Assembly (NCBI GenBank): GCA_018060545.1
Contig: JAGOVW010000001.1
Span: forward strand, 125,203 to 186,398
Length of the DNA stretch: 61,196 bases
Source: Minisyncoccota bacterium
Lineage (GTDB): Bacteria > Patescibacteriota > Minisyncoccia > Phycocordibacterales > UBA2100
Direction of reading: 5' to 3'
The notes under the pieces are model-generated. The model saw nothing but the letters and a program-made list of their open reading frames with translations, ran no database searches and was not told the DNA's origin. Shown here in pieces: positions 11,012 through 56,958 of this stretch. The translations under genes were made by a program, and so were the position numbers. Position 1 is the first letter of the stretch. Each line of letters opens with the position of its first letter.

Positions 11012-11051
11012 GTTGATGTGTATAAGGTCTGAGGCTCTCGCATTTCCAACG

Positions 11052-11057
11052 TACTAT
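11052..11057 (+). promoter_or_regulatory. -10 box, leaderless start of the secreted-protein operon
   Basis: TACTAT, 6 nt, then the ATG at 11064. It would drive the three overlapping or adjacent secreted-protein genes to 14772. Confidence 0.4.
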
Positions 11058-11063
11058 GTGCGT

Positions 11064-19426: not shown

Positions 19427-19708
19427 GAGAGGTAGGGCGGCTGGCAGGGTACCCACATTTCCGCAGACCGCCATTTTCACCCCATTCTTCTGAATGGGGT
19501 CCCGAAAATGCCTTCGATTCCTGAACCCGCGAGAATGCTACGGCAGGAGTATCTCCCACAAAGTTTTCATGCCGTCGCATGGAAAACTTCGCGGGCCGCT
19601 CCTCGCGCCCCGTCGTGCTCGACGGGGCCCAGCTCGGACCTTCGATTCCTGACGCAAGGTGCACGGCACCTTGCTCCGAGAGCAAAAAATTTGCTCCGCT
19701 AAATTTTG
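19427..19708. other. hairpin-rich non-coding flank 3' of tRNA-Arg
   Basis: No gene is seen. Hairpins lie at 19479-19500 (ACCCCATTC/GAATGGGGT, within an outer CATTTTC/GAAAATG pair), 19561-19589 (AAGTTTTC/GAAAACTT), 19608-19627 (CCCCGTCG/CGACGGGG) and 19654-19674 (GCAAGGTGC/GCACCTTGC). TTCGATTCCTG, part of the tRNA-Arg T-arm, occurs inverted at 19513-19523 and 19641-19651. Confidence 0.7.
19641..19684 (+). repeat. inverted 3'-end copy of tRNA-Arg split by an ACGCAA/TTGCT hairpin
   Basis: TTCGATTCCTG (19641-19651) and CCGAGAGCA (19676-19684) together equal the last 20 nt of the tRNA-Arg gene on the opposite strand. They are separated by a 24-nt hairpin, ACGCAAGGTGC / GCACCTTGCT (19652-19675). 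CCGAGAGCA can pair with the tRNA acceptor strand at 19709-19717 across a 24-nt loop. Confidence 0.8.
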
Positions 19709-19780
19709 TGCTCTCGGCAGGAATCGAACCTACATTACAAGCTCCGCAAGCTTGCGTCCTATCCATTGAACGACGAGAGC
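19709..19780 (-). tRNA. tRNA-Arg (anticodon GCG)
   Basis: A 72-nt cloverleaf on the minus strand: acceptor GCTCTCG/CGAGAGC, D-stem GTTC/GGAC, anticodon stem CAAGC/GCTTG with loop TTGCGGA, T-arm GTAGG-TTCGATT-CCTGC, discriminator A. CCA is not encoded. GCG reads CGC and CGU directly. Many bacteria use ACG changed to ICG for these codons instead. Confidence 0.95.
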
Positions 19781-19789
19781 AATGCGGGG

Positions 19790-19818
19790 ACTGTAACACG
19801 AGTGTGCGCTCCATTCAA
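19790..19818 (-). promoter_or_regulatory. sigma70-type promoter of tRNA-Arg
   Basis: On the minus strand: TTGAAT (19818-19813), a 17-nt spacer and TACAGT (19795-19790). The tRNA begins 9 nt later. Confidence 0.6.
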
Positions 19819-19962
19819 ATACGCCCTTGCCTCATCTGTACAGGCCCAGCTCTTCACTATCTTTGCGAATATCACAGCGCTGAGCACTTTCCGCTACTTG
19901 ATATGGCACCTTTGTGCACAGTCTTTTCTCTCCATCGGTCGCTTGTGCTGCATACTGTGTGC

Positions 19963-23164: not shown

Positions 23165-26100
23165 ATGCCACGCGGTCTCCTTAAACCGTCGAGCTTTTTC
23201 GTACGTGCATTGACGCTCGTACTGGTACTTTCCCTTGTCTTACCACCTACGGCTGTCTTTGCGCAGGCACAAGAGCTTATCGACGTGGAAAAAGAGTCCA
23301 CAGCGAATTCCAATGATACTGCTGCTACTGGGAAAGGTGGTACTGCTACTACCGACGCTAAAGGTGTCACTACATCAAAACTCGACGAACTCAAGAAGAA
23401 AGTTGCTGATGCAAAAACCCCTGCCGAAAGAGCAGCCGCCGAGGCGGAATTGAAGCAGGCAGAAGAAACGGTTGGAACAGTGACCTACACAACGCCGGAA
23501 GGCGAAACGGTTACCTGTACAAAAGATTCGGGCGGCAATTCGTCGTGCAGTACCGATGTGGCAACAGATGCGATGAACAGTTCTGGTCCGAGTGTGGGCA
23601 CAGGGCCATACACGCCATCAACCGATCTTTTCAAACCAACACCACTTGGAGAGGATGCGTGGGATCGTCTGAGTCCAGACGCACTCAAAGCATTTGATGC
23701 AAAACCAGGAGAGGGTTCGCTCCCGGGCACTGCGGTTACCGGTGCAGGAGAAGCAACACCATCTTTCATCGAACAGGTCTATGGGAAAGTCACCGACGGT
23801 CTGGGGACAGGGGATGCATTCACGCCATCCAATTTTGAAATATTCTCTCCTGGATTGAATGCAGATATTAGTGCAGAAAATGGGGCACGCATTTTTGATC
23901 AGAGTATTCCGGCAGGTAACTATCAGTTTTTCTCGGGTGGTAGTGTGTCGCCATTTGCAAATAGTGTTGGCTTTGCTCCCACGTTTGGTGATACGGTAAC
24001 CCCCTTCACCTCGTTTACTGGCGACCCCTCGTTCGTACCTCGTTCGTTTAGTGGCGCTGAAACATACAGCCCTACATTTACGTACGGGAGCAACGCGCTT
24101 TCTTTTAGTCCCACCAATGGTCAATTTGAATCACTCAGTAATCCAAGCTCACCCCTATACCGTTCACTTGGTGAGGTGGGCAGCGTACCAAACACCTTCG
24201 GGTTTCCTGGCACCACGCTTACCGGCCCCGGCCCATTTCTCTACGGTGCAACGGGCGACCTCACGTTTCCAGCAAATCCAAATAGCAGTAATCCAACCGG
24301 TCCTTCAATCCTCCCAACCGGATTTGAAGTACCGCCTGCACTTACCGACAATGCTGCGGCACTCGACGCGGTTGCGAAAGGGTTTGATCCTGCAGTAACA
24401 CCTGTCGCATTTACGCCATCAGATGCGATACAAGGTATTGCTGGTACTGCAATTGGAGACGGGAATCCTGCGGCGGTCCCCACGCTGAACGATGTTGTGC
24501 GCAACTTACAAGAAGGAAACTTCTCCGACGCGGCTCGTGCCTTTGGTCGCATAGCGGATGCAGCCATTCCTGAATGGGCAAACCTACCAACACTTTTTGA
24601 CGGCTCTCGCCCTGTGCTGGTGGATGCTGTTGTAAACGGGCCATTCGGCATATTACGAGACGGAAACGGGGTGTTTGCCGACTCTGTCGCGAGTTTCTTT
24701 GGGCGACCAGACCTATCGTCGCCAGAACAGCGAAGATTGGATGCAGCATATGCAGCCTGGGAGAGCATTCCCGTTGAAGCAACTTCTAACGAGGCAATTG
24801 CTGCTGCACGTGCCGAGCTCGGTGCTGCATTAGTAGAAGCAAACAATGTGGGCATTCCAGTAAGTGGAGAAGATTTGGCACAGTACGGAGTTGCTACGCG
24901 CAGCGCATTTGATGCGGATGGGGTAGATAACTACTCTGCGCTCAACCGTGCTCTCGACGAGCAAATCTTTGGCAAAGAAGCCTTGCTCAGTAGGGAACAA
25001 GGTGCTGCATTTAGTGACGCGCAGCGCGAATTGCAAGAGCTCGATCCGGCTATAGCGCGCAGCACTTTCGAGACGCCTGATAAAGCCTCATACGATGCAC
25101 TCAATGCGGCACTCGATAACCAGCTGCTTACCGGCACTCCAGTTACCAAGGAAGATGCGTGGAATATAAAAGAAGCAGCACGCGAACTTAATGGGGGACC
25201 AGTTCGTGACCGCGCAACTCAAGAGGCATTGGAAAATGTTGCACGAGCGCAAGAAGGTATCGATAAAGTAAAAGAGCAGTATCCTGATGCGTTCAAGACG
25301 ACCCCAGACGGGAGCCTTACCTGCGTAAATGCTAAAAGTGCTGCATGTGCTGCATTAGGCGCTGCTTACAAATCGCAAGATGATGCTCTAAAGAAGTACG
25401 GGGCATCTCTTGCTGGGTCTGACTATCGGGATTATGTGCCTGGAACAAAAGATCGTGAGGCGGTGCTACGTGCTCTAACAACTTCATACAGTGAAGTTGC
25501 TGCAACTCCAGGTGGTCCATCCGATTCCACGGTGCGCGACACTGTTGCAAAAGCACTCGGACTTGAGGGGGTGACGCCTGCTCCTGGGTCAAACCCAGAA
25601 TTTGATGCGATTGTGCGCAATGTGCAAAGTATTGAAGCGACGCGGGAAGCATCTCTTACAGGGACCGTTGATAGTTTTGCTGAAAAGCACGGCATCCGAA
25701 TCTATGAGCCGACAGGGGATGCGTATGCACCACCCACTACGGACAAAACTTTTGGTAGCGAATATGCTCGTCTACAAGAGACCGATCGCCAGTTAGCCGC
25801 TGCCACTCAGCGCAACCTCGCAGAAGCCCCCGCTGCGGCAGATAGGCTGACGCAGCGAGAGTTCACCTTGCGAGACGTAGACGCTGCGGTTGGTGTGCCG
25901 GAGGCTTCGATGCCCGAAGCTATCAAGGCGGTACAAGATTCTTCACGCGCAATTTCCGCGTTGCCCCGTGATGCTGACGGCCGACTTTCAACGACTGACT
26001 ATTTGACTGCAGTGAAGGAACAGTCGCGCCTGCAGGCGTACCAGGACGTGGTTCTCACGAAGGCACAAGAAAACTTTGATGGCCTGACGCGTTTTGGAAG

Positions 26101-29100
26101 TGGTGATCGAGGATTCGTTGCTGCATACGATGCTGCAGAGAGGATTTTGGGGCAGGGAGGGACTGTTGAGTCTGCAAAAGGTGACGGGGTGCCCAATGCA
26201 CTTGATGGTAAAACTCCTGCCGAGGTTGCAATGTATCGAGAATCACTCAGAGGGCAAACACCTGAAGATATTAGTGGTCTTATTCCGAACGGCGATAATC
26301 CTGCAGATTTACAGAGAAACCTCCGCAACCTAACCGTAGCTCGACTCAACGAAACAATTACTCTGGCGCAAGCACTCCAAACTGCGGATGCGCGCTTCGA
26401 GGCTGCCACAGGAAGGTTGTTTGTCTCGCCGACCGCGCCAGAAGAGGTGCGAGCTTTTGTCGACTCAAGTGTGCGCTCTGCGCAAGAGCGCATGGGCGCT
26501 ATCCAGGCAATAACGCAAGAGAATGCACGCTCATTAATTGCATATCAACGCACTCAGGATAATTTCCTAAACAATCCTGCATACACCATGTTTGGGGATA
26601 CGGCTCCAACAGGGCGTGCAGCAGTGCGTGCAGATTTGGAACTATCCGCTGCCGCTGATGCTGGAGGGCAGGTCGTTTCATTACGAAACCAGCTTTCTGC
26701 TCAAACCGACACAGTACAGGCTCTGAAGCAAGAGTACGCTTATAGAACTGGGAGTGCTGCGGCGGGTCTTGAACGCCTGGAAAATGTTCCCGCGTATAGC
26801 AATCTTTCAAACAGCGATTTGCTTAGTGAAATAGGAAAAGCACAAACGGCAGCGTTCAAGACCGAGGATGAGATTGCGCGACTCAACTCACTAGCACAGC
26901 GTGGTGCAGATAAAGCGCTCGCCTACCAAAATCCTTTGAAAGGCGACGCGTTTGCTCGTGGTCTCGAAGGTCCTCGGGCAACATTGCTAACGCACACACG
27001 AGAAGAAGTTATTCGCGACCAGAACGCAGCTCGCTATTTTGACGATAAGGTTGCACTTTTTGGTGCTAAGCAGCGTGATCTGCAATTGTTGGATATGAAA
27101 ATAGCGGAAGTAAACGCCAAAGCCGCGTCCCCATCTCTTGATGGACTCTCGGTTGATAAGCGCATTCAACAAGCGTATGCAACCGCTGACAATCAGGGGT
27201 GGGCACTTGAGCGTGCGCAGGTTCAGGCTGATGTTGATCGAATTAGCCAAGATTTGGGACGCATGCAGCAAGGTATATATTCTCCTGAACTTCTGGCCAA
27301 AATCGACAAGGATATTCGGCTTGACCCTGTTCTTAATACACAGAGACAGATCGCCGAAATTGATGCAGGCATCGCGCGGTTGGAAAATAGTGCACTTCCA
27401 AGGACGCTCACAGAGCCTGGTATTGCAGCCGCGCAAGAGCGACGCGCCGAACTGATGCAGCAGCTTAATGGCTATGTAGTGGCGCAGCCGAAACTCGGGA
27501 CTCCTAGCCAGATTGAGTTGTTTGGATATGGGACGACCTTTGGAGATAACCTTGAAGCGGTTGCACAACGCTTTAGCCACAACACACAAGAATTGCGTAC
27601 AGAGCTGGGGTATGCAGCGCGCGCCATGTGGAATAACCCCGATTCCCCATGGTACGTGAATGCTATTCCTGCGGGTCTTGCAAAAGCGGGGGAAATCGCC
27701 CTGGGCATGCCAGCCGACATTACCACGTCGGCTGCTGCGCTCAGTGGCCATCTCACGGACGAGCGCTACGATGCATTTGTAAAAACCAGTGATCGGGATC
27801 GCATGGGTACGGGTTTGATGGACACGCTAAATGTGGCACCGCTGGCAGTTAGTCGCCCCGTGCTTGGGGTTGCCTCACGCGTCGGAAGAATTGGTGGAGA
27901 CTTTATAGCTGACGTGCGGCTTGCCACTGGCTATGTTGATGAAAGTTTCATGGCACGCCGTTTCGGTGGGCAACTTGCCGATGAGGTGGTGTCTTCAGGA
28001 ACTCTCGCGCGAGAGGGTTTAGCACTTGATGCAGGAAGAAGTCCTTATTTGATTGACAGTGCCGCAGCACCACGCGTCGTTGAAGGAATTACGCCGGTCG
28101 CTGCACGCGCTATTGATGATGCACAGCGAGCCCGTCAAACACTCTCAGAGGCAGGTTTCCGCGTCGAAAGTAGAGGTGCTGGAGAGGTGGTAACACACCC
28201 TGCAACGCCAGGTGTTGCATACCTCGAACGCTCCACTCCATCTGAAGCTTTTCGTCCGGCGGTTGTGGCAGACCGTCTTTCAGCCACACCGTCTCTGGGA
28301 ATCGCGGATGATGTGTTGCGCACCGGAGACACGAGCCCTGTTCCCATAAGTCCAGTTGCTGCACGGGCCCTGGATGACATTCCTGGTCCCGCTTCTGCTC
28401 TTGATGGTCCAGGGGCTACTCCTGTTGCTGGTCGTCCTACGACAGGTACTCCAGGAGGACTTGCGCCTGCAGCTCGGGCAGAAGTTCCTGGAACTGGTGT
28501 ACCACGAGCAGTCGAGCCGGCAGCAAATCCATTTGCCCAGGCGGCAAAAACAAACGTGGACACTGCACAGGCTGCAAACCTAGCAGCAAAGGAAAGTGTG
28601 AAAGCAATCGAAGACATTCGAAATGCAGCCATCACCATTTCGGATACCGCTCCAGGAAAAGCAGCGCTACGCGAGATTGATGCACTGCGTACCAAAGCAG
28701 GTGCTGCAAATGAAGCGGCCCTTGCGCGAACAAGCTCATTTAATCGAGCCATTGATGATGCTACAAGCGCGTGGACAAATCGCGGTGCTGCAAATGCATT
28801 CGATAGGGCATCGCGCGAACTTGATGAACTATCAGGTGCCGCGAGCAATCTTCGAAAAGCTGCCGACGATGCACGCGAGCAACTAAATGCACTCGACCGT
28901 GTTGGTCCTGCAGACGATGCGGTGCGTGCCGCACGAGAGAGAGCGCTTATCATGGAGCGACAGGCTGATGAAGCAGAACGACTTGCCACTGATGCACGGC
29001 AGCGCTTTACCAATCTGCAACCACAACGAAGCGGTGCACAGATTGCACGCAGTGAAAGCGACGTTCGTACGTTTGAGACAAGAGGGCTGCGCGGTGCACA

Positions 29101-47100: not shown

Positions 47101-50100
47101 GAAGGCAGTAACGCTTGTGGACGCGAATTACGGAAGCCAATCACCATTTGCTACGTGGGCAAAATCGCGCCAGGCACTGGGTCAGAATCCTGCGCTCATG
47201 AGTATTGGACTCACGACCAATGCTCTTAATAACAAACTGCGTGAGCTGCTCATTGGAAATCCAGCGGCGCAAACGGTATTTGATGAAGTGGGGTACCAAC
47301 ACCAGCAATCGGTATCACGAGCGCGCGGCGGCAACATGCTGGTGGAAACACTTGAACGCGCAGGGATCATTGCGGCCACCGTTGCGGAACCGGCAACTCG
47401 CCCTGCGGTGGTGACGCAGCCGGCAGTTGTGCCAAAAGTCGTACGAGAGCGCACGTGGATTAACCTCTCACGCGGCCCTTCCTCAGTAGAGATTGCACGT
47501 CTTATGGGAGAAGGTGTGCGTATATTTGACTTTGATTTGTCTTCCACAAACGGTGTGAATGCTGCTCGAGAAGTGCTGCAAAAAGGGGGAGAAGTCTCTG
47601 TGTACCACGTGGGTGCAGGAGGAGGGGCAACCTGGGGTGAAGCGAGCTACACATTGCCGCAACTACTTGCAAATCTAAAGAGAGACATACCTGGCCTTAT
47701 TACGAAAGTAGGGACACCAAAGAAACTTATTATCCACGTCGATAACGTGCACGATCTTGTGTATTTTGCGGCAAATGACACACAGAGAGGCACTCGTACA
47801 GACATCAAAGCAGGGGAGTTTGATGGACTCAAGCAGGTCATTGATATGGTGCGCGCCACCTGTGCTGCGCAAAGTGTTGAGTGTACGCTGGCCATGAAAA
47901 ACAACGTACACAATGTGCTCCGCCTTTTGAACGACAAGCCCGAATATAAGCAGTACATGCGATATTTGTGGATAGAAAATATGACCGGTGATCAAAATCA
48001 GGTGGTTGTAGCAAGGGAAATAGCTGAGAGAGGTATTCCAGTGAATATCATCGGCTTTGGAGCACTAAAGCCAGGCGCTGCGGTAGTGAATCCTCCTGGC
48101 TTGCCTGCAAAAGAAAAAATTGTAGAAAACGAAGTCTCTGAGGTGGGGATGCAAGCTTTCTTGCGAGACAATACTTGGATTTCTGGGGGTGTCTGGTCCC
48201 CACGTGAAGACGAATTGAGTCCAACTAGAATCTTCGCAGGTGTTGTACCTAATCTCGAGGTTGCCACTGCCGCCACCCCCTCGGCACCCGCAACAGTAGT
48301 GAACTTTGACACGACGCGCACGCTTGTATCTGCAGACATTGATTCGTTGCTCAAAGACAACCCAGGACAGACGATTATTGTGGGTGGCGAGGCATGGGGC
48401 GACAAGCCAGGGTGGGAGCGGTTGGTTGCAGAGGTGCGCGCACGCCAAGCTAAAGGCGAGCCGTTGTTGTTGCACCTATACAGCCCAGGACCGGGAATAG
48501 TGCGATTCTCTGATGGAGAAGCAAAGGAGCTTAATGAGTATGCTGCAGAGGAGGGAATGAGTCTTGATGCATGGCGAGCGGGTCGCTTTGTGAACGGGGA
48601 ACCTACTGGCTGGGTCAAGTCTATGTTGAAGCGAGTTGAGTCATACAAACCAAATACATTTGAAGCTGATAACGTTGATGGTTCTTATGTGGGCAAGGAC
48701 CCAGCAGCACTGGTGGCGTTCTTGCAAAATGTGCAAACCTGGCTCGACGCAAAAGGTATCAACTCAAAGATTGTGTTGAAGAATCTCTCCGATGCGCAAT
48801 GGAGGGCGGTCATAGCTGCAGTAACAAAAGACAAGACGATCCGACTTTCACTACTTGCCAACATTGCAATACACGAGACTTCCGCGGGAACGCTGAGCGA
48901 GGAAATTGGTATTACAGAAGTGCGCACGACCAATACGAATAGCTATCCAACACCACGAGTATTGCAAGCAAAGGCAGCGGTAAACGCTACGTATAGTCGT
49001 TTGGGTGGAGGAGCTGCACCAGCACCTGTAGTGGCGGCACCAGCTACTCCAACTAAGGCTGATTCTCTTGAAAAGCCCGACTTCGATACGGCAAATGTGC
49101 GCGTAACCTATGGGGGAATTGGTGAAGTACGTATCGAATATGTGGGAGAAGGAAATTCGTTCAACGTAACACCGCAGGCTCTTGGTCTTCTCACTGATGC
49201 AGGCCGTGCAAAAGTGTCCTTCTATGTGGATGGCAGCAAGCTCACTCTTGCTGAATTCAATCAACTCCTGGATCAGGCTCATACTGCACGCGCTATCGGA
49301 GCGAGGGTTGCTGCACAACTAAAAGATAATCCTAAACTTGCCGAGCAAATCAAAAACGAAAGTGGGACCGATGTAGCAGGGCAGACACCAGATTTAGTAA
49401 AGGTGGCGCTCGGCACTGATAAAGATGGGTACACGGTGTTCTATGATTTCCGATTCCCGGGCACAAATGTTGGGTTCACAATTCACAAGCCACTAAATCC
49501 TGAAGCCGCTGATGTGCTGCGTCAGGCGGTGGCCGCGGGAGTGTTGCCGGTGCAATCACGATTGGCACCTGGCCCAGAAGGTCTGGCAATAGTGGCTCCA
49601 GGGCGTGGGGCAATCAGTATTGAGTTTGGCCAGGCTTCCGTACCAGAGGCGATGGCGCGACTCGGTGGATTGAAGGTAAAGACAGCAACTGCAGATACGG
49701 TAACGTTAGAGGACGGAACGGTGCTCACTGTTAAAGAAATTGAAACGACGCCGGCAAGTGCACCAGTTGCTGCCGCACCAGCACCAAGCACAGTGACTCC
49801 AACCCCAACAACGGCAACCACCATTACCGAAGCCGAGTCTTCACTACTGAAGCGCTTCGCCGCTGCACAAAAGGCGGTGAGTACTCCAGCAGGTGGGCAG
49901 CAGGCGCTTGCTGAAGTAACTGCAGTACAGGCGGAAATGGAACGGGCAGGTCTAAAAATAGTAGCGTCAGCACCAAAGCCGGAAGCAGGTGGTCCTGATT
50001 TCAAATTTACGAAGGGAGGTGTAGAAGTTGCCGCTCTTGCACCTGATGGAACATTTACACCGGCGACAGGAGTGGCTATTGCACCTGCACGACCAGAAAC

Positions 50101-53100
50101 AGCAGTTGCTACGCCTGCACCAGTGGTACGCCAGCCGGGGCAGATTGCAAGCGAGGCGGAGTTTACCGAGATCGCAAAAGCAGTTATAGCTGAGATGGGT
50201 GGTCTTCCAGCGCTTGATACGGTGTGGCGCTACGACGCGCGAGGGAACGTGTATAACGGAAATGGCATTCTGGTGCCTGGTTTTAAAATGAATCCTGTAG
50301 GCTCCGCTGCTTCTCGAGCGGGGACGTATGACAAAGTTGCGGCAACGACTGTTGCGCTGAATGAGGTGATGCGGCGCGTCCTTGGGGAACCTCTTGCCTT
50401 TAGTTCCGGGCATCGCCCTGGCAACATTGGGTCAACGCGACACCACGCAGCTGTCGGCAGTCGAGTCGGAAGTGGTTTGCCTGGGTATCAGGGTACCGAC
50501 TTCACGTATGCACTCGATTATGTTTCTCCATCTGGCTCGCCACTCGTGAAGAACGCCATTGTTACTCTCGCAAATCGGGCCCGGTTTGCACTTAATGAAT
50601 CTGTGGTGGCCTTGGGTGGTACGCGTGACTACATTCAGATGAGTGTGGGTGCATCGTATGGTGGTACTCCGACTATGGTGCACATCGACACCGACCGGCG
50701 CTCTGTGATGCGCGCATACCACATTGGGTCTGATCAAGGTACAAGCTTGGGGAGAACGTATCGCGCAATTTTGACAGGGGGGTATGTGCCGCATGCAGAA
50801 TTTGAACAGGCACTTCGTGCTTCTGGTATTCCAGTGCGTGGTGGTGTGGTGGTAGCCGCTCCAGCAAGTCCAGCTGCCCAACCTGCAGCCCCTACACCAG
50901 TCAGACAGTACGTACTCGTAGACAGCAAGGGCGCACAGGTAGGCAATCCGGTCGCTGCAGCAGACGTTAAACCGGCAAAACAAGTGATGCTCGTTGAAAC
51001 AGCTGCACCTACACGACTCATTAGCCTTATTGATGCTGCACGCGGTCCGAAGCGAACAACTATCGGCACATACAACGTTGCGGGGGCCGCAGATTACGAA
51101 GCGCGCTGGTACGCGAAAAAATCCGGAGGCACCATTGAGCCAGGAGATTTTGTGGCATCACGCGGCGGCACTGTGCAGGCACCAGCAGTAGCTGCAGCAG
51201 CTCGCATTCCATCCATTACCGCCGCAACTCCTCGAGGTGTCGTGCAGACAACGCTTCTACTCAACGGCAGACAACTTTCAAGCGCAGAGTATCGAGCACT
51301 CACGCCTGCGGATAAAAAGTTGGTCCGATTCGCATGGACTGGGCCAGCCGGTACGGGCGTCGGAGATGGGGAAGGATACCGTGCCTATATGAAGAATGTT
51401 CGCGACGGTGTAGTTGCTCCTGCGTCCGCAACGGCACAGCTCGGGGAAGGTGGAGCTCGGCGCGTGGCAACATACACAGTGGCACCAGACGGCACCATGA
51501 AGGACACGGTTCCGCGCGGAATAGTTGGAAATGTTACTGCACCAGAGAGGGCGGCGATTATCGGATACTTCAATGCGCTTACTCGCGGGGCTGAGTTGGT
51601 TATGCTTGAAAACGATAGAGCTACTATCGGTGTGAACAGATTCACCGACCCAGCTTTGCGCGCAAGCGTGGAAAAAGAGTTGAAGGCTCAGGGTGAGCGC
51701 ATGGTGAAACTAGGGCTAGCGGTTGTACCACGAAATGATGTAGCGAATCCTGCGGAGATAATTGCGTACTCGATTGAGCGCAGATCAGCGCCAGAGCAGT
51801 ATCTGGCGACACTATGGATCGATGAATTGCCGACACGTGAGGTTGTTGCGGCGCGTTCAAGTGGTGAGTTGGTAGTGGGGAGTGATGGTCGCTTGCGCAC
51901 TGGTGTTTTGAAATCTCCACTGCGTTCAGCGTTAGAGCAGACGACCATTGGAGGTTACAAGACATGGGCTGTTATTGCGGCCGCGGTCCCTGTCCTCGTT
52001 GCATTGAGAAAAGCTATCGGTGGCATCGCATCATTCTTCGGATTTGCTCTGCGACCTGTTGCACCTACAGTACTCGGTGGTGCAAATGGAAGTATGTTGA
52101 TTGCACCGGGTCCACATGTGGGTACGCCGACATACATAGCGAGGAATGTTGAGGTGCGTCCGGTTTACACAGTTGCGACTGCATCGCTAGGTGGCATGCG
52201 TGCTGTGGTGCCTGTACCTCCTGCTGGCGGCGCCCCTACGGCGCGCGGCGTCTATGGCCTCTGGCTCGCTGCCTTCCTTGCTTCAGGTGGTACGGATAAT
52301 GGCGAAGTGCGAACGTTGGACGAAGTGCGCTCGTTAGACAGCGCTCAGCCGGTGACGGTGCGCACTGTACGAGCACCTCGTGGCATAAGCGCACCTGCGC
52401 AGCCGACGTGGCGCACGGTACAAGATATTCAAAATGCACCGTTTGTTGCGGAAGAGTGTGATGTAAATCTTGAAACACTCGAAATGGTAAATGCTGCAGG
52501 AGAGCCATGTTCTGATTCCTCAACCACAGCAACGGACCCTGCAAAGATCAAGCAGCCTGCTCCGGGTACTGCAACAACAGGTGAGCCGCTTACTGAAATT
52601 GCTGTTACCCCTGTGGAGTTCACTCCCGCAGACAAGAAAGCAATCGGTACGGCCGAGATTGGACCAGATGGAAACGTGGTAGTGAAGAAAGAAACGCAGG
52701 TACCAGTGACTGACCCTGCTGCACCTGCTCCGGGCAATGTGCCAACTCCAGGCAATGGACGACCTGGTGATGGTAGCCGTTTCCCAAGCGCAGGTCCGCT
52801 CGATAAGTTGCGCGACATGATGAAGGGTCTTCCAAAGGGAGCAGGAGGTGGGTCTCCACAGGGTGGCGCGCCGGGTGGTGCACCTGGTGGAACTCCGCGA
52901 CCACCTGTAGGTGCAACAACCACGCCAGCAACATCAACCAAGCCAACCGTTTCTCGATTCTCATGTCGCCCAACTACGCTGTTGGGTAGCGGCACAACAA
53001 CAGTCGCGTGGGGTTGTTCTGTAGACACAGAGCTATCGGTAGGTATCGGGTTTTCAACGGGCGGCAGTACTTCAGGAACAACAACGGTACCTATAACAGC

Positions 53101-53677
53101 GCCGGGTGCAACGGTGGGCGTGCAGTGTGTAAACCGCGACGGGGTGCGCAGCGAGCCAAAGCAGTGTGCTGTGTACACGGTACAAGTAAAGACAGCGCTC
53201 GTTGCGACTCCATCCGAAGTGGAGCGAGGTGCGACGACGACCATTGGGTGGATTACCACAGGAACGACGAACTGTACGTTGTATGGTCCTGGTGCTAGTT
53301 TGCGCGGCGGTGGCAGCAACAACACCATCAGAATTCAAAACATGCAGCAGAGCACTCGCTTCCGACTCGCGTGCGGAACTCCTGCAGGTGTGCCAATCGT
53401 GCGAGAAATACTGGTACAAGTGAAAGGGTACACGGGGCCTATCCGTGAAGCTAACGTACCAGAACAGCCGCAAGTGATTCCATCGGTGAGCTACAACGAT
53501 GTGGACACAAATGGAAATGTGAATCCGTATGTGAGCGGTGATGGCAATACCAACAGTGGGCAAGTAGGGAACTCAAACTCGGGGCCAGCTGCAGTTGATC
53601 AGGACGGTAATCCAGTGAAGCTCTGCGATCCAGCGCTCGGTATACAGCGATTTACTGCATGTTTGCTGGGGCGATAG
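23165..53677 (+). CDS. giant secreted multi-enzyme protein (10,170 residues)
   Basis: One unbroken frame of 30.5 kb encodes an apparently secreted protein. A Sec signal peptide (residues 1-36, ending V-F-A-Q-A) is followed by a Phe/Gly/Ser-rich region (about 120-400), helical repeats, an Ala/Arg/Glu coiled coil (about 1790-2410), a SecA-like motor domain (about 2550-3200), a hydrophobic hairpin (3860-3930) and a GNAT-like domain (about 4475-4590). Then come wall- and polymer-active folds: amidase_2 (about 5990-6130), RlpA-like barrel (6275-6390), SGNH hydrolase (6640-6830), a second amidase-like domain (7115-7305), alpha/beta hydrolase (7845-8070), two GH114-like barrels (8090-8305, 8380-8605) and an M15-like peptidase (8995-9190). 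Near the end are a membrane segment (about 9595-9630), a Gly/Pro linker and two Ig-like domains (9930-10090). A role in attacking a host or prey envelope is inference. ATG 23165 has TACGAT 6 nt upstream. Confidence 0.85.
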   Translation: MPRGLLKPSSFFVRALTLVLVLSLVLPPTAVFAQAQELIDVEKESTANSNDTAATGKGGTATTDAKGVTTSKLDELKKKVADAKTPAERAAAEAELKQAEETVGTVTYTTPEGETVTCTKDSGGNSSCSTDVATDAMNSSGPSVGTGPYTPSTDLFKPTPLGEDAWDRLSPDALKAFDAKPGEGSLPGTAVTGAGEATPSFIEQVYGKVTDGLGTGDAFTPSNFEIFSPGLNADISAENGARIFDQSIPAGNYQFFSGGSVSPFANSVGFAPTFGDTVTPFTSFTGDPSFVPRSFSGAETYSPTFTYGSNALSFSPTNGQFESLSNPSSPLYRSLGEVGSVPNTFGFPGTTLTGPGPFLYGATGDLTFPANPNSSNPTGPSILPTGFEVPPALTDNAAALDAVAKGFDPAVTPVAFTPSDAIQGIAGTAIGDGNPAAVPTLNDVVRNLQEGNFSDAARAFGRIADAAIPEWANLPTLFDGSRPVLVDAVVNGPFGILRDGNGVFADSVASFFGRPDLSSPEQRRLDAAYAAWESIPVEATSNEAIAAARAELGAALVEANNVGIPVSGEDLAQYGVATRSAFDADGVDNYSALNRALDEQIFGKEALLSREQGAAFSDAQRELQELDPAIARSTFETPDKASYDALNAALDNQLLTGTPVTKEDAWNIKEAARELNGGPVRDRATQEALENVARAQEGIDKVKEQYPDAFKTTPDGSLTCVNAKSAACAALGAAYKSQDDALKKYGASLAGSDYRDYVPGTKDREAVLRALTTSYSEVAATPGGPSDSTVRDTVAKALGLEGVTPAPGSNPEFDAIVRNVQSIEATREASLTGTVDSFAEKHGIRIYEPTGDAYAPPTTDKTFGSEYARLQETDRQLAAATQRNLAEAPAAADRLTQREFTLRDVDAAVGVPEASMPEAIKAVQDSSRAISALPRDADGRLSTTDYLTAVKEQSRLQAYQDVVLTKAQENFDGLTRFGSGDRGFVAAYDAAERILGQGGTVESAKGDGVPNALDGKTPAEVAMYRESLRGQTPEDISGLIPNGDNPADLQRNLRNLTVARLNETITLAQALQTADARFEAATGRLFVSPTAPEEVRAFVDSSVRSAQERMGAIQAITQENARSLIAYQRTQDNFLNNPAYTMFGDTAPTGRAAVRADLELSAAADAGGQVVSLRNQLSAQTDTVQALKQEYAYRTGSAAAGLERLENVPAYSNLSNSDLLSEIGKAQTAAFKTEDEIARLNSLAQRGADKALAYQNPLKGDAFARGLEGPRATLLTHTREEVIRDQNAARYFDDKVALFGAKQRDLQLLDMKIAEVNAKAASPSLDGLSVDKRIQQAYATADNQGWALERAQVQADVDRISQDLGRMQQGIYSPELLAKIDKDIRLDPVLNTQRQIAEIDAGIARLENSALPRTLTEPGIAAAQERRAELMQQLNGYVVAQPKLGTPSQIELFGYGTTFGDNLEAVAQRFSHNTQELRTELGYAARAMWNNPDSPWYVNAIPAGLAKAGEIALGMPADITTSAAALSGHLTDERYDAFVKTSDRDRMGTGLMDTLNVAPLAVSRPVLGVASRVGRIGGDFIADVRLATGYVDESFMARRFGGQLADEVVSSGTLAREGLALDAGRSPYLIDSAAAPRVVEGITPVAARAIDDAQRARQTLSEAGFRVESRGAGEVVTHPATPGVAYLERSTPSEAFRPAVVADRLSATPSLGIADDVLRTGDTSPVPISPVAARALDDIPGPASALDGPGATPVAGRPTTGTPGGLAPAARAEVPGTGVPRAVEPAANPFAQAAKTNVDTAQAANLAAKESVKAIEDIRNAAITISDTAPGKAALREIDALRTKAGAANEAALARTSSFNRAIDDATSAWTNRGAANAFDRASRELDELSGAASNLRKAADDAREQLNALDRVGPADDAVRAARERALIMERQADEAERLATDARQRFTNLQPQRSGAQIARSESDVRTFETRGLRGAQDAERVARDVSAARTPVEAEQLVARARAANQVAQDAAVNAAARLDAARAAVNGAERSALPQATQRALKRLEEVADNTATFAQRSAEAQRIAEVGAVRAKTAAEIREGARLTRAAPTEVQAARTLADSVPARAQQYATDASSATSRAQGARTIRGAETAAADARNAARAARREADALSDARLAAENAQRRLPNSEAATERLKAIRDAEGQAMTHAKTAHEAALRAEEVALTRTAVRDTGRAKVGTENAATAARQGAEVAKREMRALARARTAEQQERRLLRVEGAQGRAQEALARAKEQHATAQARAAAAQGSDVAPARAHLAKADEALARAEGAAREATDVLAQARSQVNAPLAEAAARRAKDLGEQAGRLQKIIDEAAPGSARDAAMVNLEKVLDQARYEAGQAEMFARRAEGVADDVAQARALSNKSDALAGITAQTDEILKKIDASGEFPGLAERMKKEGFAFESKGESARLERFLDRGNTRYTAQQFADEVQNVRTAHGREGRSFNEGVAEAQQRIARAESRAEEYYRGIDNTEDAWATANKNFETAVAAGQVQDPLLTGVSLLRQELRAMHSGAFDFDLFTGQVHGVYALARGNNLVATTGAGKTLMEVAEMRLQRMLLGDNFFGELGIPRELSTGFLSERLGSATVEGMLRRGGLEPRNIARLWNTNQAEAISIIKGRTANDILVLDPATRGQILTYAKNAQDTDLIASLNKTNRVTVDEYHKWLGDSTASIIGTAGDATAARASVLAKEEVVGRVLQSLDIKPGASLLDDAPLASRKYTIERVEGKQWSSLKPDAASDARIFINEATGETRLSSQAQAQFARDGLPDVARVGSVDNIAVGQTLDRLAQRTGQQGGLRLENGRLDVIGPNNQAQVGLVPHDTYGLIAYTKNQLAREAVGNVPLGSSLSGGRSVSEIVSELRSTAKVAQRDVYADVLKQGGQVRGITATYDGVRALNDARIGGEVTVLSAKRFDPSDVQMVRSEAAADDIIRQRAGMDSGVPERNVIVGVFDQPQTYERLVGDAARRDGVFKGMKGDVYVEDAYGAIYKVGPEGRQLVDKPLSDLLKTGEKKGDVFIVQRGEGYDPQGLYTMVSYGADRFELLGQATGRPGRFGMPAELGEPIIGGNGTIVTGFKDGRGNILASGERGYWIGDNVVVVDAAKVNDTIGIAQRNADSVRTALAQADNAARDITTGARSVNDGTGAYELFERSLGRGKALAPDEEFLLYSHLKQAELVDKVAKTETFEAVRANRSTEHFEAIARDLAVAPEHRALAQKAIDDLNNTPATGRDLTAAPSGTVGRPGESYLSNLNQAENVVARDALRKFDDAVRESGIAPSDALTARMNTMRGNIDAWERVNFAQVQPAASSVVFKEGQSVAEHAAVQQRIGQSIVSTEARQTPVVLARTDAELSAVNPVVRAAQDVQASIGQVVQDIRGQFVRAGEEVRGLVRSETTQSAAQIEARALRSAEAQYRRAAAEEAQRMGLAIDGAQVVTASPSFVPQGTVSAATADVQGWLAQADVLGARAAQLESGAVPATGYSPEGNRIVRSVQVPGSERIAIGDAVVRTGDVPGAAAPAVVVGFTEVEGQPIVIAQIPGTGEQRIFPVSRAQRVAAARIGETRPGISGTPTQYTNVDEAITALQRTRNVLDATPVASPQWLEADSDAYVAALYIADRARQGLVSPDQKNQLSALSKYEISPAGDLRSKAGVYTSTDEAIAALAEAERVLSENGNIMAADEPRTIAVFDSLSQSRRYLEDRYEAGELSAEQKARVDAIGWWKYANTEGSVVLTADNGEIDLELLDGEAVDQPNIFARFLGRRSSPVATPAAPVSEGGITSAPTGEVVAPTTASPARALSLSQRAALYLPRTSALIDSSPIGNTIGLFGRGLAVGAAIAVAPLSSVVPATFYAVVAIDALLFVPSTMPIARWFVPGVRFLGVRFATNVVRDLASLAFDAARGRSRIPTIATPSATIETQAAARVAPGAVAADGWKYEEIVSSGDGEWKVSDSRGTAAYFPNRAAAEAAFNSRNLTTITPATSRDRLREIMARVDATAVADEVPGLSDAEQAVADAYRGEANSIRREMADLAEREGLSVDFMDDMAVKNPELHVYVRGQFAISDGFMARADDIESGLVQVRASTVGGETPVLTQFELDAIAKTESLRTTPGNQEAYQAARRTSDFALARAGMSWLGTGYLLESRTHVVTANEDGSVASIEPYRQTAVADAPVESDFATRIPQPIPSDGGVAWASYSAENGTMEESVPQRLAPIILANTPELQAIATARANANTEGAVDISAFIDELGAVLIANYGVQLSVVNHNDPVPGVPAGSLTAVPEGYAAIPESIGRTAGVQPKLATWQPGIRSDTAPNGTLFVRGGALANPALALELVGHEVGVIRAAEVMGSKLAINETLVPASTLPRVVGRNAYLTDYVDDAVEQQTIAVRNSSAQPLALADVVTLAQPILAEAITNDAVAAVPVQESVIEIEPVAGSNIKANLVIRENDSVVARAQLSLRDLSIRGENVPFIALGRLDVVPSARGRGYGAALLSAINNLSRNTGIPGVLDNGIQENIFVKGAGESAVANPAFGMYQRNGWKETGYKTILVLDPNGTVDLPAAGFATHYGIRRAQGISFGQGPDGSLTVVSTPAIAATPSAAKILRSGAVLAVGSLLLALDPTGAFAQTVSDVGAAVVNGEVAPAAWLTSAMAGLGIGAPRSNAEERALEEAAVALRSAIRAAEGLTDEQKTQLVEAVDAELTSQELPTHVQTLSAPSSNPRFNALGTRERAMQQLFPFVMHRAMQISGEAADVGQDGSAFLAAFESGIGAPVNAYVGLSAPQKDTLAGGRSEIPLEATSLTPETVAFLANENYSAKRVAPNVVELSRPTIVGQDIVLAGVARDLGIEIDIQVPTPIRIPENLDLSSLNDYPRLQEAIRAALSNAIEVRLKPLITDNITANSVLNTEVKGTFDDGNPEQTNRNTFRKVVQLQSDNAFRYLENNGMRLSNAATGFTARLDSVIDEARRSGITTNFTSAVATLYEMRSRLAGSTALTALTPDERMALAYDYKAFAELFIELVSGTASFADGLAAAERVQRRSRVAEAPRFRIETPDDIDSLNGFRTLVDVANRVVGGDPLLESAMREVGQARLDLRARNTRVAEAGIARAVVAVEVFNAKQPGLLEVVALGQVQAPAQSRTAVSRLMPILFAPLVALGFIDPASAADVATGAATTLPSVTGLVQQGIATILSIGTQTIGPVLTRISVASGFRTATPTNLPSVPQDVADALSTLTSDGSVGDTYRTTVVALAQALGREDIAQVQRHIDALATLAPRYEEAADAVFAWTLETTGDVRNIALLDAIQRAGASASAARDAALAAKGTSGEQEALEGYALAEVNALRADDALLQTATAIAATPERQPGILGRGITYILNNIVATPQAAPATPSVTRVPTPEQQSAIDALNAAKAALDGSYADAVSETSVRPFEEAVARARAALGAQGLSDTPEGSIVDAETREVVIAVPVPVAVAEEPVLIRARQAVAASVGPKTGATLPREVRSVQTPIRQVDTLALPANQEQRDAFTLATPARKGDTFLYRAVAGNFAQPTDVVAPGTTDQEFEALRAQIDEVQNRLDVLRVVGLLGNDADALTQFTDALTNRAETLSSSDPALVDAIVRMQANISTLTRGTPNIQAAAIADMQAQLLANQAALFTELGTLSPEDRTAAAVALLRTRRALEAQVAGLGEAVYFRSADEALRTVPIAGGAYTLVRIAVSSEYTNDLGDRIAVPQGLTGEAVAQADAAMKGALVVPDQWFVMKEKSLAGNRAPKSRIGKTVFIAGELAYLLAGPAFGEAGRGGTGQEQTFVSVSFDGQGRMSFGEPVLTPRQQVKAFVEGKLAQAWSGARTTVADAASRDVAAPVRQGLLSLLTFGLSDQAVAQPVPSAVAQDPLSPARALTQAERQVVPKAPADVAKVEARAAQVAALSPHFATLINTARTSGLPTPEFWPAMSADAPRTYRFGVMHDTAANVGGRNSAIFPRLQTSNGPVTAHMYVLRDGTIIFSQPEGAPVAHVTSQPRGILAFGKALDLNNSNAIGVEFENESGKPLSPEQVKAIDSLVPFMIARYGIDGGFFGHQETHAKWPGEGVMAANAARLNRTIYLRSQGVPVGERAVFDEYGPIADERSKPAAAPTQNSRGPLMLNPIALRDAAVQFFNRVTSDEAKVAGPTGEEIAAALFVPVDAEGLNNFDLRPVPAVAAGGPGAGEPPVVPARQFTVGSVIHFLLGISPAYGEAGPGRSYTVGESRYSVLTIEETQKLVGQQIEPRTASIYKTGDKTSTGAPFQPQNQFIFAHKTWPIGTVVEFTGPTGLKAVARVADRGPFISGRDYDLTAPLAAAVGIREGQGLGQVGARVLRVPSPEELATYSGPVAFPKSAPDVGPVIATAPSQVPRIAQQMIQKTQQVVSGIAPAVTQRVEQVTRTVTTTVRGDIQKIDATLSTYMNGLAKIDAMEKKGVFWALGNMDTIRKGIESSAADAENFVKTTRGEIAAAGLSPQVQAQLETRLKVIEKSIGEVRTLVPQDLGSVKDQIRAAGDRGLREAQVVRAQLDKALADARSAAELAVKTDPARDPLSQPQPVTETITRTQAVTPAPVVAPDTRTSVVTAPDNLKGYKIGALCDSNCEIAQAPLERALGTVSRSNPNAAGATVNTVAANRGFGLVNGPRNGEDQFAKFKADAVRIADTRPDAVFLSVGANDAPHLPAKTALFEQRLTELVKIFTDRGIKVHLIEQATYKPSLTQGINAANQTIAKVARGNNQARIISSGSFAQGKGLASDAEAVHFSAAGWDTIALLAREQMVKDRALPGRADAPVVAPTPAVRVQPAVPVAVTEECTGTCQTRFGIKAQLASPANWVSRNLQDILSSAGCTGAMHSCYKTSTGDAEAYFSKLLMQPEYKDGCKPLTVQCIIVGKWVADDTAWRASVGSRAIVADPQGHASRVVRFMAELGVNITLTTPLDLSDRATRLALAKAMSRAELAAGKQPYSDAVLEEGYRRAVVRSGQPAPTVGDRITQVGEEVREVITRVTPTPMAGTTADPRNTRNVDNQFEREFAELAQLPAEVQEMLRLAQAGKLFTVDPVTKRIIDSASPGVVFVGSVLSGNNSRNLNDLKKRITINRLVTHDVSNGPGNFNGSGAFAVEGAGIEWVGSNRGAPVHFLVTHPFDQDRRISVGSSFYNVKKGQVLVVQFAPFDAELNHATGMSFDSFGIENMGRSGQRLPAAMLAANFGILKAAEQALGKEIAVAPHGIGPSRRNQEGVDLANFLARGRTNAQEFFGRISARVRDASGNFFAVGPGNTQIAWGGDTGLQSQPGRITSTMAQRTTVAPQSRPVQYRTEIQYTPIPDSGQGVVSGLPTGAQYRLVGAAAQPARTETAAPTPTLTPAPSSEVVPLSSELLAHITAATGINGRARVASAARLPDGSIQLFASDGTRIGTLSVAPANSINTEAAVREAATAIKGIAKEGVIMPMTVIDPRNPLDPKQMVRVFMPEALALDTALRAANLPRLSTVDSRHVGPGRTSDQAELKYDSPESQRRAIAAAEKIRAVTVPVDLAIPDGDRRFRDGFTLADYTALMRSIDGAEATDIANNLKLHDRQNYISRDALQRHLLASAILGLPDMGKIFATTENGHGGLHLGGDDIDFATGPAGLATDYAWRTGNYTNAIGSHTLAAQFMAFGYAHHALALAGSPKGGVYPTPSGHIGTDTRPRGAWNGETPADGGNPLIKNMMRNTLRVAYDHFANGTTAQIPFADVAKLRDNSAFKGVGERRAIFTGNNGSVAVDLHPAVAAGPRASTVATAPTPARATTAEPAAARPVGVAWEGRQTLPSIGLSVRLYYPKTTDITKPLTLVHYFHGNDGITATWSQMKEQADKAGLRGSNIVVVAPEFVGEIGNTASPFNAPDSFARYRVEAQNAVRVGSAQQGTVPTFTAGDAVVAYSGGFNAARSVIILNPELVKAVTLVDANYGSQSPFATWAKSRQALGQNPALMSIGLTTNALNNKLRELLIGNPAAQTVFDEVGYQHQQSVSRARGGNMLVETLERAGIIAATVAEPATRPAVVTQPAVVPKVVRERTWINLSRGPSSVEIARLMGEGVRIFDFDLSSTNGVNAAREVLQKGGEVSVYHVGAGGGATWGEASYTLPQLLANLKRDIPGLITKVGTPKKLIIHVDNVHDLVYFAANDTQRGTRTDIKAGEFDGLKQVIDMVRATCAAQSVECTLAMKNNVHNVLRLLNDKPEYKQYMRYLWIENMTGDQNQVVVAREIAERGIPVNIIGFGALKPGAAVVNPPGLPAKEKIVENEVSEVGMQAFLRDNTWISGGVWSPREDELSPTRIFAGVVPNLEVATAATPSAPATVVNFDTTRTLVSADIDSLLKDNPGQTIIVGGEAWGDKPGWERLVAEVRARQAKGEPLLLHLYSPGPGIVRFSDGEAKELNEYAAEEGMSLDAWRAGRFVNGEPTGWVKSMLKRVESYKPNTFEADNVDGSYVGKDPAALVAFLQNVQTWLDAKGINSKIVLKNLSDAQWRAVIAAVTKDKTIRLSLLANIAIHETSAGTLSEEIGITEVRTTNTNSYPTPRVLQAKAAVNATYSRLGGGAAPAPVVAAPATPTKADSLEKPDFDTANVRVTYGGIGEVRIEYVGEGNSFNVTPQALGLLTDAGRAKVSFYVDGSKLTLAEFNQLLDQAHTARAIGARVAAQLKDNPKLAEQIKNESGTDVAGQTPDLVKVALGTDKDGYTVFYDFRFPGTNVGFTIHKPLNPEAADVLRQAVAAGVLPVQSRLAPGPEGLAIVAPGRGAISIEFGQASVPEAMARLGGLKVKTATADTVTLEDGTVLTVKEIETTPASAPVAAAPAPSTVTPTPTTATTITEAESSLLKRFAAAQKAVSTPAGGQQALAEVTAVQAEMERAGLKIVASAPKPEAGGPDFKFTKGGVEVAALAPDGTFTPATGVAIAPARPETAVATPAPVVRQPGQIASEAEFTEIAKAVIAEMGGLPALDTVWRYDARGNVYNGNGILVPGFKMNPVGSAASRAGTYDKVAATTVALNEVMRRVLGEPLAFSSGHRPGNIGSTRHHAAVGSRVGSGLPGYQGTDFTYALDYVSPSGSPLVKNAIVTLANRARFALNESVVALGGTRDYIQMSVGASYGGTPTMVHIDTDRRSVMRAYHIGSDQGTSLGRTYRAILTGGYVPHAEFEQALRASGIPVRGGVVVAAPASPAAQPAAPTPVRQYVLVDSKGAQVGNPVAAADVKPAKQVMLVETAAPTRLISLIDAARGPKRTTIGTYNVAGAADYEARWYAKKSGGTIEPGDFVASRGGTVQAPAVAAAARIPSITAATPRGVVQTTLLLNGRQLSSAEYRALTPADKKLVRFAWTGPAGTGVGDGEGYRAYMKNVRDGVVAPASATAQLGEGGARRVATYTVAPDGTMKDTVPRGIVGNVTAPERAAIIGYFNALTRGAELVMLENDRATIGVNRFTDPALRASVEKELKAQGERMVKLGLAVVPRNDVANPAEIIAYSIERRSAPEQYLATLWIDELPTREVVAARSSGELVVGSDGRLRTGVLKSPLRSALEQTTIGGYKTWAVIAAAVPVLVALRKAIGGIASFFGFALRPVAPTVLGGANGSMLIAPGPHVGTPTYIARNVEVRPVYTVATASLGGMRAVVPVPPAGGAPTARGVYGLWLAAFLASGGTDNGEVRTLDEVRSLDSAQPVTVRTVRAPRGISAPAQPTWRTVQDIQNAPFVAEECDVNLETLEMVNAAGEPCSDSSTTATDPAKIKQPAPGTATTGEPLTEIAVTPVEFTPADKKAIGTAEIGPDGNVVVKKETQVPVTDPAAPAPGNVPTPGNGRPGDGSRFPSAGPLDKLRDMMKGLPKGAGGGSPQGGAPGGAPGGTPRPPVGATTTPATSTKPTVSRFSCRPTTLLGSGTTTVAWGCSVDTELSVGIGFSTGGSTSGTTTVPITAPGATVGVQCVNRDGVRSEPKQCAVYTVQVKTALVATPSEVERGATTTIGWITTGTTNCTLYGPGASLRGGGSNNTIRIQNMQQSTRFRLACGTPAGVPIVREILVQVKGYTGPIREANVPEQPQVIPSVSYNDVDTNGNVNPYVSGDGNTNSGQVGNSNSGPAAVDQDGNPVKLCDPALGIQRFTACLLGR
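30820..31345 (+). other. SecA-like DEAD motor core within the giant protein
   Basis: H-G-V-Y-A-L-A-R-G-N-N-L-V-A-T-T-G-A-G-K-T-L parallels the SecA segment with its T-G-E-G-K-T-L P-loop. About 110 residues later V-D-E-Y-H-K-W is a Walker B-like box followed by S-I-I-G-T-A-G-D, similar to the I-I-S-G that follows the DEAD box in SecA. A later R-G-I-T-A-T-Y-D-G-V (near 31945) may correspond to the second motor half. An ATPase core inside a signal-peptide-bearing protein is unexpected. Confidence 0.5.
36590..36945 (+). other. GNAT acetyltransferase-like domain within the giant protein
   Basis: A beta strand L-G-R-L-D-V-V-P-S-A is followed by the acetyl-CoA loop R-G-R-G-Y-G-A-A-L-L and, later, G-M-Y-Q-R-N-G-W-K-E-T-G-Y. 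This is the GNAT order (motif A, then the Y/F-x-x-x-G-W end). Confidence 0.6.
41130..41560 (+). other. N-acetylmuramoyl-L-alanine amidase (amidase_2/PGRP) domain within the giant protein
   Basis: M-H-D-T-A (zinc His), A-H-M-Y-V-L-R-D-G-T-I, V-A-H-V-T, A-I-G-V-E-F-E-N and G-H-Q-E-T follow in the amidase_2 order. The usual D-P-G near the end is changed to W-P-G-E-G. It would cut the sugar-peptide bond of peptidoglycan. Confidence 0.7.
41990..42335 (+). other. RlpA-like double-psi beta-barrel within the giant protein
   Basis: T-A-S-I-Y, T-S-T-G-A-P-F, A-H-K-T-W-P-I-G-T-V-V and V-A-D-R-G-P-F-I-S-G-R-D-Y-D-L-T match the RlpA family, several members of which are lytic transglycosylases. The acidic D in the D-R-G-P-F motif and the D-Y-D-L motif are kept. 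Confidence 0.75.
43080..43665 (+). other. SGNH/GDSL hydrolase domain within the giant protein
   Basis: Block I is I-G-A-L-C-D-S (C for the usual G of GDS), block III is S-V-G-A-N-D-A and block V is D-A-E-A-V-H-F-S. These give the Ser, Asn and Asp/His of an esterase or O-deacetylase. Confidence 0.65.
46700..47370 (+). other. alpha/beta-hydrolase-like domain within the giant protein
   Basis: Y-F-H-G-N-D (oxyanion HG), V-V-A-Y-S-G-G (nucleophile elbow), T-L-V-D-A-N-Y-G (acid) and Y-Q-H-Q-Q (His) come in the right order for an esterase. Confidence 0.55.
47440..48980 (+). other. two GH114-like TIM-barrel domains in tandem within the giant protein
   Basis: The second copy (about 48300-48980) has F-E-A-D-N-V-D-G-S-Y-V-G followed by K-I-V-L-K-N, close to the D-N-V-D-x-Y ... 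L-K-N-D pattern of GH114 endo-alpha-1,4-polygalactosaminidases. The first (47440-48085) has I-I-H-V-D-N-V-H-D-L and A-M-K-N-N. They would cut an alpha-linked galactosamine polymer. Confidence 0.55.
50150..50745 (+). other. M15-like zinc peptidase domain within the giant protein
   Basis: S-S-G-H-R-P, G-S-T-R-H-H-A-A-V ... Y-A-L-D-Y-V and M-V-H-I-D resemble the H-x(n)-D ... H-x-D zinc site of D-Ala-D-Ala carboxypeptidase-like M15 enzymes. Spacing is longer than usual, so this is tentative. Confidence 0.5.
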
Positions 53678-56459: not shown

Positions 56460-56652
56460 GCGGTGTTTGTTGGACAAAGTTCGAAACTATTTCGAGCAAA
56501 ATCCAAATGATTAAAACGGACTCGGCAGGGCGAAACAATTTGTCTGGGGGAAAGGATTCGCCCTGCCTCGGCTGATTTCCCGCCCGCAGGAGGGGTCTGG
56601 GGAGGAATGCGGGCGGGTTTCGGACTGGGGGTTTTCGGAAATTCGGCGGCTA
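56460..56652 (+). repeat. 193-bp perfect inverted repeat, left arm
   Basis: By base-by-base comparison the reverse complement is identical to 58952-59144. Inside are two strong hairpins: CAGGGCGAA/TTCGCCCTG (about 56526-56565) and CCCGCCCGCA/TGCGGGCGGG (about 56579-56617). No coding frame is credible. Confidence 0.95.
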
Positions 56653-56671
56653 CAAAATCAGAAAATACAGA

Positions 56672-56957: not shown

Positions 56958-56958
56958 T

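Follow-up and report, generated by a model that had tools for sequence, protein, structure and literature searches.

Whether a bacterium of small genome really encodes a single protein of more than ten thousand residues, and what such a protein would do, are the questions raised by a 30.5-kb open reading frame (ORF) in the 61,196-nt stretch of DNA analysed here, hereafter called the window. Giant surface ORFs are already known in host-dependent bacteria (PMC10066038, PMC8080830). What is new here is a Parcubacteria family of giants with a fixed chromosomal slot, shared ends, swapped cargo and a SecA-type module.

The giant ORF is real

The frame starts with ATG and runs over 10,170 codons, the sole stop being the terminal one; the initial annotation had described it as free of internal stops, and the ORF check and codon statistics both confirmed this. 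The stop frequency expected for this frame is 4.3% per codon, which would place about 440 stops in a random stretch of this length and composition (log10 P(no stop) of about -195). In the two other forward frames, 3.9% and 5.3% of codons are stops. GC content by codon position was 0.66/0.51/0.45, an order kept in nearly every 500-codon block, and codon usage correlated with that of the neighbouring genes at 0.82-0.97 in each 1000-codon block (0.79 for a low-GC island downstream). The giant ORF is real, and a chance open frame is excluded.

The gene takes up 2.8% of the 1.083-Mb assembly, close to the several percent estimated before. The genome (1.08 Mb, 93% complete, 71 contigs) places the window at the end of a 186-kb contig that also carries RuvABC, YebC, PolA, PilB, a PBP and a Mur ligase. 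The assignment to Patescibacteria held, the same-family relative G032 being a member of Parcubacteria. The bacterium is tiny and, judging from its lineage, probably host-dependent.

Peptidoglycan-type enzymes in the giant

The features of the giant are listed in Table 1. Behind the signal peptide, which was correctly recognised before (h-region at residues 15-33, AVFA cleavage), a Thr/Ser/Pro-rich stretch is followed by helical regions. The Amidase_2 domain scored 38.9 bits against a Pfam cut-off of 26, as expected from the earlier call; two zinc-ligand histidines are present, while the third ligand is displaced from its usual place. The RlpA-like call (DPBB/RlpA, 3.4e-7; NCBIfam RlpA, 1.3e-11) and the SGNH call (GDSL/SGNH, 6.5e-7) also stood, with DRGPFxxGRxxDL kept in the barrel, and GxND and the C-terminal His kept in the SGNH domain. 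The Amidase_2 family cuts peptidoglycan stems, the RlpA family cuts denuded glycan strands, and the SGNH family cuts ester bonds. With these profile matches, the richness in peptidoglycan-type enzymes that had been claimed for the giant was borne out.

Other domain calls fared differently. The GNAT call is borderline, with a weak match (3.7e-5) that lies below the cut-off, and the alpha/beta hydrolase is supported indirectly, through a free-standing secreted homologue in the syntenic genome G005. No profile match was found in the giant for a second amidase or an M15-like domain, or, even at E=10, for two GH114 domains, and no similarity was found between the two supposed GH114 copies. Structure prediction without an alignment gave two poor models (pLDDT 43.6 and 38.5), from which just the TIM-barrel-like beta-alpha pattern at residues 8099-8296 was taken, and Foldseek with the model of this region retrieved mostly generic TIM barrels. 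Both GH114 assignments and the M15 assignment were dropped for want of a profile match; residues 8099-8296 appear, in a low-confidence model, to be a generic TIM barrel. PDB sequence searches returned nothing useful. A pattern scan for the six-Cys module in genome and viral collections gave one true match, in Parcubacteria group bacterium Gr01-1014_8; two Bradyrhizobium matches were periplasmic-binding-protein-like and were judged to be chance.

Table 1. Features of the giant ORF and of related genes in the window (res, residues of the giant).
Feature	Position	Strand	Evidence
Giant ORF, 10,170 aa	23165..53677	+	ORF check, codon statistics
Sec signal peptide, res 1-35, cleavage near AVFA/QA	23165..23269	+	
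First cysteine pair, C118/C128	23516..23548	+	Similar Cys-bearing segments behind the signal peptide in related giants
Segment res 714-760, Cys pair C720/C728	25304..25444	+	Alignable with G046 giant
Ala/Arg-rich, Pro-poor helical (coiled-coil-like) region, res 1780-2440	28502..30484	+	Composition
SecA-type ATPase module (putative), res ~2516-3110	30710..32494	+	Pfam below cut-off, G046 homology, profile link
Strongest internal transmembrane candidate, res 3884-3902	34814..34870	+	
GNAT acetyltransferase-like, res 4479-4578	36599..36898	+	Pfam, below curated cut-off
Internal signal-peptide-like segment, res 4645-4662 (..GAFA/Q)	37097..37150	+	
Internal signal-peptide-like segment, res 5182-5198 (..PASA/A)	38708..38758	+	
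Internal signal-peptide-like segment, res 5896-5911 (..QAVA/Q), ~80 residues ahead of amidase	40850..40897	+	
Amidase_2, res 5989-6109	41129..41491	+	Pfam 1.3e-9; alignment with G022 giant
RlpA-type double-psi beta barrel, res 6299-6378	42059..42298	+	Pfam, NCBIfam, G022 alignment
GDSL/SGNH esterase-type domain, res 6653-6816	43121..43612	+	Pfam
Six-Cys module, res 6865-7033	43757..44263	+	53% identity to module in G032 giant
Alpha/beta-hydrolase-like, res 7845-7999 (HGN, AYSGG, DAxYGSQ)	46697..47161	+	Secreted free-standing homologue in G005
(Beta-alpha)-repeat region, res 8099-8296	47459..48052	+	TIM-barrel-like in low-confidence model
C-terminal Ig-like pair, res 9914-10087	52904..53425	+	
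C-terminal two-Cys tail (LCDPALGIQRFTACL)	53624..53662	+	Similar in G032, G015, G007 and G022 giants
Secreted protein with same C-terminal Ig-like pair	10932..12440	+	
Secreted protein with same C-terminal Ig-like pair	12437..13927	+	
Ig-pair protein directly upstream of giant	19579..22455	+	

The Ig-like tail and the export of the chain

The Ig-like pair and the two-Cys tail together span residues 9914-10166. The pair had been described as shared with smaller neighbours, and it is indeed common to the giant and the three Ig-pair ORFs of Table 1: a model built from the latter scored the giant's tail at 57 bits, with at most 6.4 bits for 200 shuffles. When genomes were searched with this model, each of the 35 from the same family gave matches, as did 14 of 24 from other families of the order; the carriers are mostly secreted proteins of 250-900 aa, several being far larger.

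All 24 cysteines of the giant have a partner at most 35 residues away (118/128, 720/728, 6648/6652 and so on), with a mean of 3.6 and a maximum of 12 of 24 when cysteines were placed at random (2,000 draws). Close pairing was also seen in G005 and in the giants of the lemA slot described below; in the G046 giant, 18 of 19 cysteines are paired, and the one left over opens an intein-type domain. The pairing points to disulfides and to an extracytoplasmic position for the first ~730 residues and for the bulk of the chain beyond residue 6648, so that much of the giant appears to be exported. No transmembrane segment was predicted between residues 34 and 3884, so the ATPase module would be outside too. 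The giant has about four credible internal hydrophobic segments, and residues 3884-6648 may loop through the membrane, which would leave the GNAT domain inside. GNAT and SecA-type modules normally require cytosolic cofactors, which is difficult to reconcile with export of the whole chain.

A probable SecA-type ATPase module

The putative ATPase module carries Walker A TGAGKT (~2583), Walker B VTVDEYHK (~2701), ITATYDG (~2930) and motif VI QATGRPGRFGMP (~3088), and both the sequence and the alignment with G046 place Walker A, Walker B and motif VI in SecA order. In the 7,694-aa giant of G046, Walker A reads GEGKT and Walker B reads VIDEAH; the alignment covers both of these and a SAT-like motif, and motif VI less exactly; the 21%-identity alignment over 2,098 aa was made with composition correction off and is used in the ATPase region only. 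Pfam SecA_DEAD matched the giant in the right register at Walker A, at E 0.02 and 14.6 bits against a cut-off of 24.6. As this cut-off was missed, we class the module, on sequence grounds, as apparently SecA-derived and not as SecA.

A profile of the region, built from two sequences (window and G046), was searched against 381 genomes of the phylum. Beyond the window itself it matched exactly three proteins (E 0.009-0.017), each of them the canonical SecA of its genome, aligned at the same place. In hhalign the region reached E 0.0025 with a probability of just 12%, and a canonical-SecA model scored the giant at 0.2 bits, whereas a few among 1,000 shuffles scored higher. The corresponding region of G046 had no Pfam SecA match, a PDB search with the region was empty, and pattern scans of genome and viral collections confirmed nothing. 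West-Roberts et al. are said to have found, in 2023, a divergent SecA DEAD domain in most Omnitrophota giants. A divergent domain of this type is what the present tests point to, being weak singly and specific when combined, and we regard SecA ancestry of residues ~2516-3110 as likely. The module resembles the SecA preprotein translocase in its NBD1 start, in the order of Walker A/B and motif VI, and in the profile-level link, but differs in that it is set inside an exported giant and in its very low similarity; the canonical SecA of the window's genome is encoded separately (G000:C61). The initial annotation had overlooked this module in its domain list, as well as the paired cysteines and the internal signal-peptide-like segments.

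A family of giants with a slot at lemA-htpX

Giants were found upstream of lemA in seven genomes, at 7,694 aa (G046), 5,021 aa (G015), 3,287 aa (G007), 2,657 aa (G022), 2,389 aa (G032), 2,241 aa (G018) and 1,997 aa (G034). Some adjoin lemA, others are separated from it by one or two small ORFs, and a gene for an htpX-like M48 peptidase also lies at the locus where checked. On the opposite side, where seen, is groEL, directly in G018 and G034 and beyond two secreted proteins in G046. The identities of groEL, lemA and htpX rest on Pfam in most genomes, those of most other neighbours on sequence only. In the window's own genome, lemA lies 293 bases from a contig end.

The giant of G046, a genome of the same family but a different genus, belongs here by its locus, its SecA-type region and its C720-type segment, without the Ig tail. 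The cargo differs from giant to giant: Amidase_2 (1.8e-10) and DPBB (5.8e-8) in G022, M15 (1.6e-11) in G015, and Zn-peptidase/M48, intein and SecA-like domains in G046. The idea that Amidase_2 occurs in a giant only in the window was dropped, given the domain in G022. A 3,275-aa ORF of G005 carries a Zn-peptidase and is sited away from the lemA-htpX slot. Besides the six-Cys module and the Ig tail, little aligns between the window giant and that of G032, and since the six-Cys modules are 53% identical, modules would move or persist independently of the remainder. We interpret the giants of these relatives as one family of variable length and rotating cargo, often at one fixed chromosomal place, a membership that had escaped the earlier reading.

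The G046 giant contains an intein-type splicing domain (PF14890, 1.9e-17; L005:11480-12520, G046:C39). In the lemA-htpX slot of G007 and G022, a second tail-bearing ORF lies beside the giant (L030:18845-19999 and L032:17302-18999), with an almost identical two-Cys tail, pointing to recent duplication or shuffling.

The window locus is syntenic with G005 in its Ig proteins, LTD, Mur ligase, RuvA and a large Ig protein. In G005 a secreted alpha/beta-hydrolase has a gene of its own (E 4e-17, 30% identity to the window module), slightly upstream of the start of another giant that is cut by the contig end. Because of this free hydrolase and the internal signal-peptide-like segments, we infer that the giant absorbed separate secreted-enzyme genes, which suggests growth via fusion of genes for secreted proteins. 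G005 also has two nearly identical giant N-termini on separate contigs (L019:19084-19447 and L020:344-10168), which may be paralogues in tandem or reflect a repeat at which the assembly broke.

Proposed function and alternative explanations

We consider it probable, with moderate confidence, that the giant is a surface polyprotein, exported through Sec, whose role is to attack or remodel the envelope of a partner cell, within a fast-evolving Parcubacteria family. Of the earlier reading, the secreted nature, the peptidoglycan-type enzymes, the lineage and the ~3% genome share held, half of the hydrolase list (second amidase, two GH114 domains, M15) found no support, and the breaching of a host or prey envelope stays a hypothesis. 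The helical part would project or span, the Ig tail would hold the giant at the cell surface, as for its smaller neighbours, and the string of enzymes would cut peptidoglycan and esterified polymers of the partner cell at the contact site. Least certain is the part of the SecA-type module, which would probably drive or gate passage of the chain across the membrane. The gene would have been enlarged by fusing secreted-protein genes, some retaining signal-peptide-like segments, and quick cargo turnover would be expected in an arms race with hosts.

An artefact of assembly, a chimera joining separate genes, might be suspected in a genome split into 71 contigs. However, codon periodicity spans the whole giant, and chimerism is further disfavoured because independently assembled genomes hold related giants, one likewise with a SecA-type module, and because a syntenic partial copy exists in G005; we consider it extremely improbable. 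The chain might instead be a production format, cut after export at internal signal-peptidase-like sites that would free amidase, RlpA and SGNH units. It has been proposed that very large proteins may undergo processing into smaller ones (cited in PMC13104272), and the giant has four AxA signal-peptide-like segments if the true one is counted, against a block-shuffle mean of 0.84 and none in the reversed chain. These statistics are modest, at least four segments occurring also in 4 of 300 shuffles; in G046 just two internal sites were seen, both weak, the segments may be remnants of past gene fusions, and cleavage would part the enzymes from the Ig tail, so that this mode of production seems unlikely.

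Remodelling of the cell's own envelope (division, wall turnover, pilus passage) is a possible alternative to attack, given that RlpA, amidase and SGNH domains serve wall maintenance too and that the genome builds its own wall (PBP at 548-3058). However, giant size and enzymes vary strongly at one locus, unlike housekeeping, and Amidase_2 is present in just 21 of the 297 genomes of the order. The own wall would thus be a less likely target, and we hold this alternative to be quite improbable; with cargo turning over among relatives, interaction with changing partners would be a better fit than a housekeeping role. A giant adhesin or surface coat, with many enzyme-like modules degenerate and used for binding, would agree with the displaced third zinc ligand of the amidase and with the usual view of large CPR surface proteins (PMC8080830, PMC13059738, PMC11809585), but the RlpA domain retains DRGPF, the SGNH domain GxND and the ATPase module its Walker A/B and motif VI residues, and we judge this rather improbable. 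Going beyond the partner-directed polyprotein that we favour, the SecA-derived ATPase could be active and exported or membrane-placed with the cargo, so that the giant would be a self-contained machine, a single polypeptide bearing a translocation motor plus exchangeable envelope enzymes, which would propel itself or its modules through the membrane of the producer or of the partner; this is speculative, and we think it doubtful.

Comparison with known giant proteins

In CPR epibionts and predators, the Absconditabacteria Vampirococcus lugosii (PMC8080830) and S. methylophilicida (PMC13059738) likewise have very large surface proteins, of at most 4,163 aa; the accessible parts of these reports describe them for recognition and attachment, and in those parts a SecA-type module or an enzyme string is not reported. 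Patescibacterium danicum has FhaB-domain proteins of more than 5000 aa (PMC11809585), similar as very large Patescibacteria exoproteins without full-length homologues and with domain reshuffling proposed; they differ in carrying adhesion domains (FhaB, DUF2341), not envelope hydrolases.

For the giant ORFs of Omnitrophota, a role in predation was proposed, with peptides enriched in attached cells, and the Velamenicoccus giant was detected at the peptide level, with 42 transmembrane helices given (PMC10066038). The likeness to these Velamenicoccia proteins, a descriptive one, lies in very long exported ORFs, ultra-small host-dependent bacteria, hydrolase domains and poor conservation; like them, the window giant is a single ORF of more than 20 kb, host dependence being deduced from lineage. 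Its internal hydrophobic segments (~4 credible ones) are fewer than those 42 helices. The Parcubacteria family differs in its lengths of 2-10 kaa, in a defined Ig/two-Cys tail at the C-terminus and in a conserved locus with rotating cargo, with the SecA-type module detected by profile in 2 of 70 family genomes.

Parcubacteria are a large and mostly uncultured group, and the giants are concrete candidates for the means by which they attack other cells or feed on them. A slot with shared ends and rotating enzymes is a natural experiment in which cargo could be matched to host wall chemistry. If true, a SecA-type motor in exported giants of two phyla, reportedly so on the Omnitrophota side, would hint at a shared, undescribed principle of export or delivery.

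Other observations in the window

Three small secreted proteins with Ig-like tails lie in a row at 10932-14772; two of them carry a second Cys motif (C..RPW..FFDNLC) ahead of the tail, and the remaining one has a similar Cys-bearing segment. The listed start of the ORF directly upstream of the giant overlaps a tRNA-Arg on the opposite strand, and its true start probably lies downstream of the listed one. At the contig end, positions 56500-61000 form a low-GC island (38-43%) with genes for a Cyt-b5/cytochrome D1-type beta-propeller protein, a serine recombinase and tRNA-Ser, probably an integrated element.
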